Assembly: GCF_018882285.1 (NCBI RefSeq)
Contig: NZ_JACVOT010000001.1
Span: forward strand, 496,001 to 560,000
DNA from: Polynucleobacter sp. AM-26B4
Lineage (GTDB): Bacteria > Pseudomonadota > Gammaproteobacteria > Burkholderiales > Burkholderiaceae
DNA: 64,000 nt
Direction: 5' to 3'
The position numbers and the translations under genes are program-made. Numbering within the stretch: position 1 is the stretch's first letter; the number at the start of each line of letters is the position of its first letter. Shown one piece after another: positions 14,796 through 15,527 of the stretch. The notes under the pieces were generated by a model, which did no database searches, was not told the DNA's origin, and was given only the letters and a program-made list of their open reading frames with translations.

Positions 14796-14939
14796 GGTGC
14801 TCTCCTATGAAGATTTATGTTTTTTAAGACTTTGTACGATACCTTAAATTGGTCTTTTCGTCCGCCAATTGCTATCGCATTTAGCCAAGAAGCCATTAAG
14901 AACAGTAACCAAGCACCCTCTATTAATCTCAATGAATAG

Positions 14940-14975
14940 TTAATATTAATATATAATGTAAATAATTAATTAATA
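14940..14975 (+). promoter_or_regulatory. Candidate -10 box and AT-rich operator upstream of the ArsR gene
   Basis: A TATAAT at 14952-14957 lies 33 bases before the ATG of the ArsR gene. It is bracketed by a perfect 10-base palindrome TTAATATTAA (14940-14949) and by a TTAATTAATAA run around 14966-14975. BigR/SqrR-type regulators bind AT-rich imperfect palindromes over their own -10 region, so autoregulation here is plausible. No good -35 box was found at the expected distance. Confidence 0.4.
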
Positions 14976-14989
14976 AATTGGTGAACTTG

Positions 14990-15328
14990 ATGGACGCAAA
15001 AGAAAAACTATCCATGAGCGAAGGCATGCAGTTTGATATTGCTGCGATGAGAGATAACGCAGACAAAGCTTGTCGCATGATGAAAACACTGGCTAATCGT
15101 GACCGCTTGATGTTGTTATGCCAATTAAGCCAAGGTGAAAAGCGCGTTGGAGAATTAGAAGAAGTCACCAATATTCAACAGCCCACTTTGTCACAACAGT
15201 TGGCCGTGCTTCGTGAAGAAGGCGTTGTATCAACACGTCGTGATGGTAAACATATTTATTACAAGATTTCGAGCCCCATCGCGATGTCCGTGATGGAATT
15301 GTTGTACGCCAGCTACTGTGGCAAATAA
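14990..15328 (+). CDS. ArsR-family repressor of the BigR/SqrR (persulfide-sensing) type
   Basis: This winged-helix ArsR-type regulator has 112 residues from the ATG at 14990, which has GGTGA at 14980-14984 as its ribosome binding site; in-frame TTG and GTG codons lie further upstream. The recognition helix is in NIQQPTLSQQLAVLREEG and the wing in TRRDGKHIYYKI. Two cysteines, in RLMLLC (residue 44) and LLYASYC (residue 110), are 66 residues apart, the same spacing as the dithiol pair of BigR/SqrR that forms a polysulfide bridge. There is no metal-binding ELCVCDL motif, so arsenic sensing is unlikely. A DUF2892 gene follows with an 11-nt gap. Confidence 0.85.
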   Translation: MDAKEKLSMSEGMQFDIAAMRDNADKACRMMKTLANRDRLMLLCQLSQGEKRVGELEEVTNIQQPTLSQQLAVLREEGVVSTRRDGKHIYYKISSPIAMSVMELLYASYCGK

Positions 15329-15338
15329 GGAGAAGTCT

Positions 15339-15527
15339 ATGCAATGCAACGTCGGCGGAATTGACCGCACTTTACGTATCGTGATTGGCGCACTCTTAGT
15401 TGTTTTGGCAATTATTGGTGTGATTGGTAACTGGGGCTGGATTGGTTTATTGCCAATCGCAACGGGTGTGTTTCGTTTTTGCCCGGCCTACCCATTGCTA
15501 GGTATTAAAACTTGTAAAAAAGATTGA
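15339..15527 (+). CDS. DUF2892 (YgaP transmembrane domain-like) small membrane protein
   Basis: The ATG at 15339 is preceded by AAGGAGAAG, an excellent ribosome binding site; an in-frame GTG at 15318 would overlap the regulator gene and is less likely. The 62-residue product starts MQCNVGGIDRTLRIVIGA, has two hydrophobic helices, and ends FRFCPAYPLLGIKTCKKD. This matches the DUF2892 family, which forms the membrane part of rhodanese YgaP. Here the rhodanese part is absent. Three cysteines (2, near 48 and near 59) fit a role around sulfane sulfur, and cotranscription with the BigR-like gene supports it. The function is inferred. Confidence 0.85.
   Translation: MQCNVGGIDRTLRIVIGALLVVLAIIGVIGNWGWIGLLPIATGVFRFCPAYPLLGIKTCKKD

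Follow-up and report, generated by a model that had tools for sequence, protein, structure and literature searches.

A dithiol ArsR regulator and a standalone DUF2892 membrane protein in Polynucleobacter: a probable half of an import module for sulfane sulfur that has become dispersed

The ArsR-family regulator described here can best be understood, with a probability of about three in four, as a thiol-persulfide-responsive repressor that would control two loci: its own arsR-DUF2892 pair, and a distant pair of YeeE/YedE genes, relatives of which stand together with such a pair in other bacteria. The arsR-DUF2892 pair is then probably half of a sulfane-sulfur import module that has become dispersed. 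The window, that is, the whole stretch of 64,000 nucleotides analysed, is G000:C2:496001-560000 of a 1.67-Mb Polynucleobacter genome near P. cosmopolitanus. Its relevant features are the following.

14947-14968, strand not assigned: weak operator-like site of arsR, with three mismatches to TAATATAT-N6-ATATATTA, at -43 to -22 from the ATG.
14952-14957, plus strand: TATAAT, a candidate -10 hexamer that falls within the operator-like site and is invariant in nine aligned intergenic regions.
14990-15328, plus strand: arsR, for a dithiol winged-helix repressor of the SqrR/BigR/SoxR/YgaV kind with C44 and C110.
15327-15332, plus strand: AAGGAG, read from the sequence as the ribosome binding site of the DUF2892 gene.
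15339-15527, plus strand: gene for a standalone DUF2892 (PF11127) membrane protein of 62 aa, modelled with two long helices and carrying C3, C48 and C59 and the motif CPxYxxxGxxTC.

The arsR gene runs from an ATG at 14990 to a TAA at 15326-15328 and encodes 112 aa; ten bases separate its stop from the ATG of the DUF2892 gene at 15339, before which the ribosome binding site lies as had been described earlier. A scan with the sigma-70 consensus found no full promoter before arsR. Upstream lies a divergent HbpS-like gene (PF03928), and downstream the convergent genes for AzlD and AzlC. G000 shares the order rhlE-hbpS-arsR-DUF2892-azlC with six sister genomes, in which HbpS, ArsR and DUF2892 are 75-100% identical; an arrangement and proteins so conserved across seven genomes are not there by chance. 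Among the loci compared, this order is confined to these seven (G000, G005, G006, G009, G027, G029 and G032), and the best named match of the DUF2892 protein, from Polynucleobacter cosmopolitanus (95%), has it likewise.

The regulator has cysteines at positions 32, 44 and 110; the last two, in RLMLLC and YASYC, are 66 residues apart, just as the first-pass annotation had read them. Among its PDB relatives, phmmer places BigR first (4.4e-22), then SqrR (3.7e-21), then HlyU and YgaV; C44 falls on a cysteine in both BigR and SqrR, and the best stretches pass C110, reaching the matching C-terminal cysteine. Both residues are invariant across 18 aligned relatives, E. coli YgaV included, and likewise in a second alignment of 24 relatives (rows hand-picked in each). 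The AlphaFold2 model (pLDDT 88) has C44 in helix 37-46 and C110 just past helix 96-109. Its first three PDB matches are HlyU (4k2e_A, rmsd 1.1), SqrR (6o8l, 1.2 over 91 columns) and BigR (3pqj_A, 1.9 over 95); across the SqrR crystals (reduced, disulfide and tetrasulfide) the rmsd is 1.2-3.2, and across those of BigR 1.7-1.9. Judged by these superpositions, the sulfurs of C44 and C110 would lie near each other. The protein thus has two marks of the SqrR/BigR/SoxR/YgaV dithiol class: the winged-helix fold, and a cysteine pair made up of one residue in an early core helix and one at the C-terminal end. With 101 bits against the BigR equivalog model NCBIfam NF040642 it falls below the curated cut-off of 155, and it is therefore called a member of the dithiol class, not BigR. 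It appears to be a conserved SqrR/BigR-like sensor of known kind. A tree of 49 rows makes the window's clade of seven genomes one group (support 96/97); it does not favor either the copies linked to persulfide dioxygenase (PDO) or those linked to YeeE as the nearer to that clade, and it carries a long-branch warning.

The link to the second locus comes from a palindrome, TAATATAT-N6-ATATATTA. It emerged from the sequences that precede PDO and YeeE genes at loci outside the clade, where many such promoters have it in common. Many congener promoters were seen in the process; the YeeE and PDO promoters of the clade were not. Searched for genome-wide with up to three mismatches, the palindrome has 12 places in G000 against 9 for a reversed control, so that further targets in this genome cannot be called. 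One copy is perfect: it lies at G000:C2:316635-316656, 41 bp before a two-gene YeeE/YedE operon about 194 kb from arsR, and it played no part in the derivation. Six of the 12 places were inspected: this one, that of arsR, and four others rejected as targets. Of these four, one is within a peptidase-like gene, one is next to dnaN/dnaA-like genes, one separates two small genes, and one separates an rpoH-like from an ftsY-like gene (names by eye).

A scoring matrix built from 14 palindrome sites outside the clade (training sites 26.9-33.7 bits) gives 30.5 bits to the YeeE-promoter site and 11.6 to the arsR site. The latter is the only copy in the window with up to three mismatches; 46 of 2000 Markov shuffles score as well, and 15 of 100 shuffles of the window contain at least one such copy. 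The best arsR-promoter scores of the sister genomes are 8.4-13.9 bits, at differing distances from the gene (that of G009 has two mismatches); with sites so weak and so variably placed, autoregulation is a tentative proposal. In terms of sequence, then, control of the distant YeeE pair by ArsR is well supported, and autoregulation only weakly so. The SqrR operator, ATTC-N8-GAAT as quoted in PMC9774250, was considered for the arsR promoter and rejected: there is one copy with a single mismatch at 14922-14937, but the window has 35 such copies against 44.8 expected, and no perfect one.

Across the genus the palindrome is a candidate operator. A complete listing has 26 sites with at most one mismatch. 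Of these, 23 are followed, after 28-86 bp, by the matched part of a PDO or YeeE gene; G024:777255, G035:73601 and G004:846425, a perfect copy, are not. This last (G004:C1:846425-846446; L056:12926) precedes an uncharacterized gene by about 250 bp; relatives of that gene occur in the YeeE-sulfurtransferase row of other congeners. At up to two mismatches, 17 of the 28 PDO copies and 13 of the 19 YeeE matches in the genus are preceded by a site, and 11 PDO copies and 6 YeeE matches are not. A site with at most one mismatch occurs in 21 of 32 congeners with a close ArsR (a copy scoring at least 94 bits) and in none of the five without one (Fisher p 0.010, optimistic because the genomes are related and G028 is 78% complete); 11 of the 32 have no such site, and two of the five, G015 and G033, carry PDO.

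The distant operon encodes two proteins that both match PF04143 (Sulf_transp) above its cut-off of 27: a C-terminal half of 184 aa (87.9 bits, profile positions 174-306), followed by an N-terminal half of 176 aa (68.9 bits, 13-150 of 310). Each half has a CP-containing cysteine motif (by eye), and the pair probably imports thiosulfate or zero-valent sulfur. Orthologs of both halves (82-98%) occur in four sisters, each with the palindrome in the promoter: one mismatch in G027, G006 and G005, two in G029. G032 lacks the orthologous pair, has a 35% relative without such a site, and carries a palindrome with two mismatches just before PDO; a search of G009 (84% complete) did not turn up the pair. 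In two further genomes, G007 and G019 (L112, G007:C6; L113, G019:C28), a DUF2892 gene stands directly before both halves of the orthologous pair (75-79%); no palindrome with up to two mismatches lies near these operons, the best having three and four, which counts against the two-locus reading.

The first-pass annotation had seen in the window a minimal sulfane-sulfur response unit around a SqrR/BigR-type sensor. Its sulfur link appears right as far as sequence tells, the regulator being a dithiol ArsR whose relatives stand among sulfane-sulfur genes; its boundary of the system appears wrong, as the sole perfect operator is 194 kb away. The gene context comes from a survey of 61 genomes and a comparison of larger stretches around 40 loci, in which the labels PDO, SQR and isc are our own reading of the sequences. 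Some ArsR match is present in 53 of the 61 genomes and PF11127 in 50. Of 50 close ArsR copies, 28 have a DUF2892 gene within 200 bp downstream on the same strand and 22 do not; 43 of the copies, and all 28 pairs, belong to the genus. Outside the clade, ArsR mostly follows either PDO (with TauE, and sometimes SQR, divergent) or a YeeE-YeeE-...-sulfurtransferase row; some copies are placed otherwise. In three congeners (G034:C3, L036; G002:C1, L047; G023:C1, L051) an isc operon ends with hscA- and fdx-like genes (names by eye) and the ArsR-DUF2892 pair comes next, as if sulfane-sulfur sensing were linked to Fe-S cluster assembly. At G004:C1:838240-838535 an ArsR match just before DUF2892 is in two pieces, one with stop codons. 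A second, distant ArsR group (L033, L037, L039, L041, L043 and L046) is divergent from an ABC permease, molybdate-like by eye, stands before soxC-like genes and forms its own group in the tree.

PDO (E <= 1e-20) is present in 37 of the 61 genomes and in only one of the seven in the clade, G032; it is absent from G000. Close SQR relatives (E < 1e-150) occur in nine genomes and none of the clade, G000 having just a 23% match. Elsewhere G000 has four rhodanese matches in three frames, and one TusA. Sulfite reductase (PF01077) is found in G000 and in 12 of the 13 genomes searched; the only one without a match is G027, the nearest genome by ArsR identity (96%). G027 yet keeps both the ArsR-DUF2892 and the YeeE-pair loci, which would be consistent with reduced sulfur being taken up for assimilation.

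In some other bacteria the parts stand together. The best 80 standalone DUF2892 loci from named genomes were searched by profiles: 50 have a related ArsR and 37 a YeeE half. Counting ArsR, YeeE, PDO, SQR, TauE, sulfurtransferase and SulP, 68 loci have one or more (66 of 80 by tblastn) and 12 have none. In 21 of these 80 loci DUF2892 has a YeeE half on its own strand no more than 500 bp away; nineteen are from Pseudomonas or Stutzerimonas, one is from Cupriavidus pinatubonensis HN-2 and one from a Burkholderiaceae MAG, and 17 of the 21 have ArsR, C-half, N-half and DUF2892 in that order. Because ArsR/DUF2892 and the YeeE halves are neighbors there, the arsR-DUF2892 pair and the YeeE pair of G000 have the look of a single cassette split in two.

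Several characterized systems resemble this one; the comparisons use partial text of the papers cited. In Acinetobacter baumannii, BigR controls yeeE-yedE-pdo2 (PMC7315123, which also cites a related Serratia operon): as proposed here, a dithiol ArsR governs a YeeE/YedE pair, but PDO is in the same operon, whereas in G000 there are 194 kb between the pair and arsR, no PDO is present and DUF2892 is beside arsR. YedE1E2 of C. pinatubonensis JMP134 imports zero-valent sulfur and makes GSSH (PMC10812762); it too consists of two half-length YeeE/YedE proteins, and strain HN-2 (L154) has ArsR, C-half, N-half and DUF2892 in a row. The halves in G000, by contrast, are longer, are predicted transporters and lie apart from ArsR and DUF2892. 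In Hyphomicrobium denitrificans the YeeE-like SoxT1B signals to SoxR (PMC11582611); shared with the present system are a dithiol ArsR bridged by sulfane sulfur and a YeeE-like membrane protein (PMC11582611, PMC10451225). SoxR, unlike the regulator proposed here, controls thiosulfate oxidation genes, and DUF2892, a term that occurs in only four papers of the literature searched, is named in neither of those two. The DUF2892 protein Dsui_0042 of Azospira suillum rises about 10-fold under sulfide oxidation, and its deletion impairs the onset of sulfide oxidation just slightly; the paper's text does not mention ArsR (PMC5358917). Sulfide and polysulfide persulfidate BigR itself, and a C42-C108 disulfide frees it from DNA (PMC5823870). 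The system is thus of a known kind in a new, dispersed arrangement: in the literature surveyed, mostly outside subscription journals and at the level of titles and abstracts, neither an ArsR with standalone DUF2892 nor such a Polynucleobacter regulon was found.

From the work on BigR, YedE1E2, SoxT1B/SoxR and the Azospira protein we infer a mechanism of import sensing. With C44 and C110 reduced, ArsR would bind AT-rich palindromes covering the promoters; basal levels of the YeeE pair would let external sulfane sulfur or thiosulfate in, and cytoplasmic persulfide would rise; sulfane sulfur, as persulfide or polysulfide, would bridge C44 and C110 and release ArsR from the promoters; more importer, DUF2892 and ArsR would follow. 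As G000 has no PDO, sulfur brought in this way would be assimilated or end up in thiol persulfides and would not be oxidized.

The DUF2892 protein fits such a scheme most likely as an accessory membrane protein of sulfur import, its conserved cysteines handling sulfur. Its only Pfam match is PF11127 (YgaP-like_TM; 82.1 bits, cut-off 25.3), of which it is the one copy in G000; it has three cysteines, and a profile scan found no rhodanese domain in it or in eight neighboring proteins, so that the earlier description of a bare membrane protein stands. C48 and C59 are invariant, and C3 is not, in an alignment of the window protein with 27 from the best 80 named loci; among 12 proteins from the genus, C3 is missing once and C59 once. 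The model has two long helices (mean pLDDT 70.7, with low confidence toward the C-terminal cysteine). A relative among PDB sequences was sought with phmmer, which gave one chance match (E 1.3). The gene pair recalls E. coli YgaV-YgaP, where an ArsR of 30% identity that shares the cysteine pair is likewise followed by a PF11127 membrane protein; YgaP differs in its N-terminal rhodanese, known from annotation, and in having one of the three DUF2892 cysteines in the aligned part (PMC9774250, in partial text). The description of the window protein as the YgaP membrane part therefore holds at the level of Pfam and not against E. coli YgaP itself: BLASTP gives E = 0.067, C48 alone is aligned with a YgaP cysteine (C159), and PF11127 stands alone, outside the rhodanese + PF11127 architecture.

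This likeness to YgaP raises a different role for the protein, as an exporter of a product such as thiocyanate or sulfite, which has been suggested for the YgaP membrane part, in place of help with import. The YgaP membrane helices respond to SCN-, with C159, the counterpart of C48, near the site (PMC4730233, in partial text), and a sulfurtransferase gene lies just before ArsR in some relatives. The export role is unlikely nonetheless: the scanned neighborhood offers no rhodanese, YgaP does not have the CPxYxxxGxxTC motif of the standalone type, and elsewhere YeeE and sulfide oxidation genes are frequent neighbors. A tentative extension of the import role, well short of even odds though not negligible, is that standalone CPxYxxxGxxTC proteins are an unrecognized third part of half-size YeeE/YedE importers. 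In the membrane they would act as a persulfide relay, passing on the importer's sulfane sulfur, possibly to the ArsR sensor.

One might also suppose that the system ends where the first-pass annotation ended it, with ArsR controlling itself and DUF2892 alone, and perhaps hbpS too. The pair is in fact flanked by genes of other function, and its own promoter does have a weak site; but the perfect operator copy before the YeeE pair, a site conserved in four sisters, makes this quite improbable. The suggested control of the HbpS-like gene fares no better. The best score on the hbpS side is -5.8 bits, far from the 26.9-33.7 of the training sites, and a different motif, ACGATACC, is found there in most of the nine aligned regions. 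A comparison of hbpS across 23 genomes of the genus has 20 loci from outside the clade, with rhlE adjoining in 18 and arsR in none: hbpS stays with rhlE in congeners without an adjacent arsR, and its regulation by ArsR is rejected. The gene looks like a bystander. In G016, which has no close ArsR, and at a locus in G011, azlC is near hbpS; the simplest reading is that arsR-DUF2892 was inserted between azlDC and hbpS in the ancestor of the clade. G000 has a second HbpS-like gene at G000:C2:261731-262123, 74% identical to that of the window.

Metal sensors of the ArsR/SmtB family hold their metal ligands in the DNA-binding or the C-terminal helices. That ArsR here answers metals, or another oxidant or electrophile through a C32, C44 and C110 thiol switch, and no longer persulfides, its sulfur links being inherited context, is quite improbable: the protein does pass the general metalloregulator model (79.7, cut-off 55), BigR cysteines are also sulfenylated and glutathionylated in vitro (PMC5823870, in partial text), and PDO and close SQR are missing from G000, but no further cysteine/histidine ligand cluster of the ArsR/SmtB type is seen by eye, and the operator-bearing partner belongs to a sulfur transporter family.

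On the two-locus reading, what had been a sulfur sensor with a membrane protein becomes a proposal for a defined regulon in a streamlined freshwater bacterium without PDO or close SQR, and a candidate operator for ArsR in Polynucleobacter is now proposed. The split arrangement of the clade lets the putative sensor-relay part be studied separately from the importer. For the standalone DUF2892 proteins, widespread and so far unexplained, the role pointed to is sulfane-sulfur import, not sulfide oxidation.
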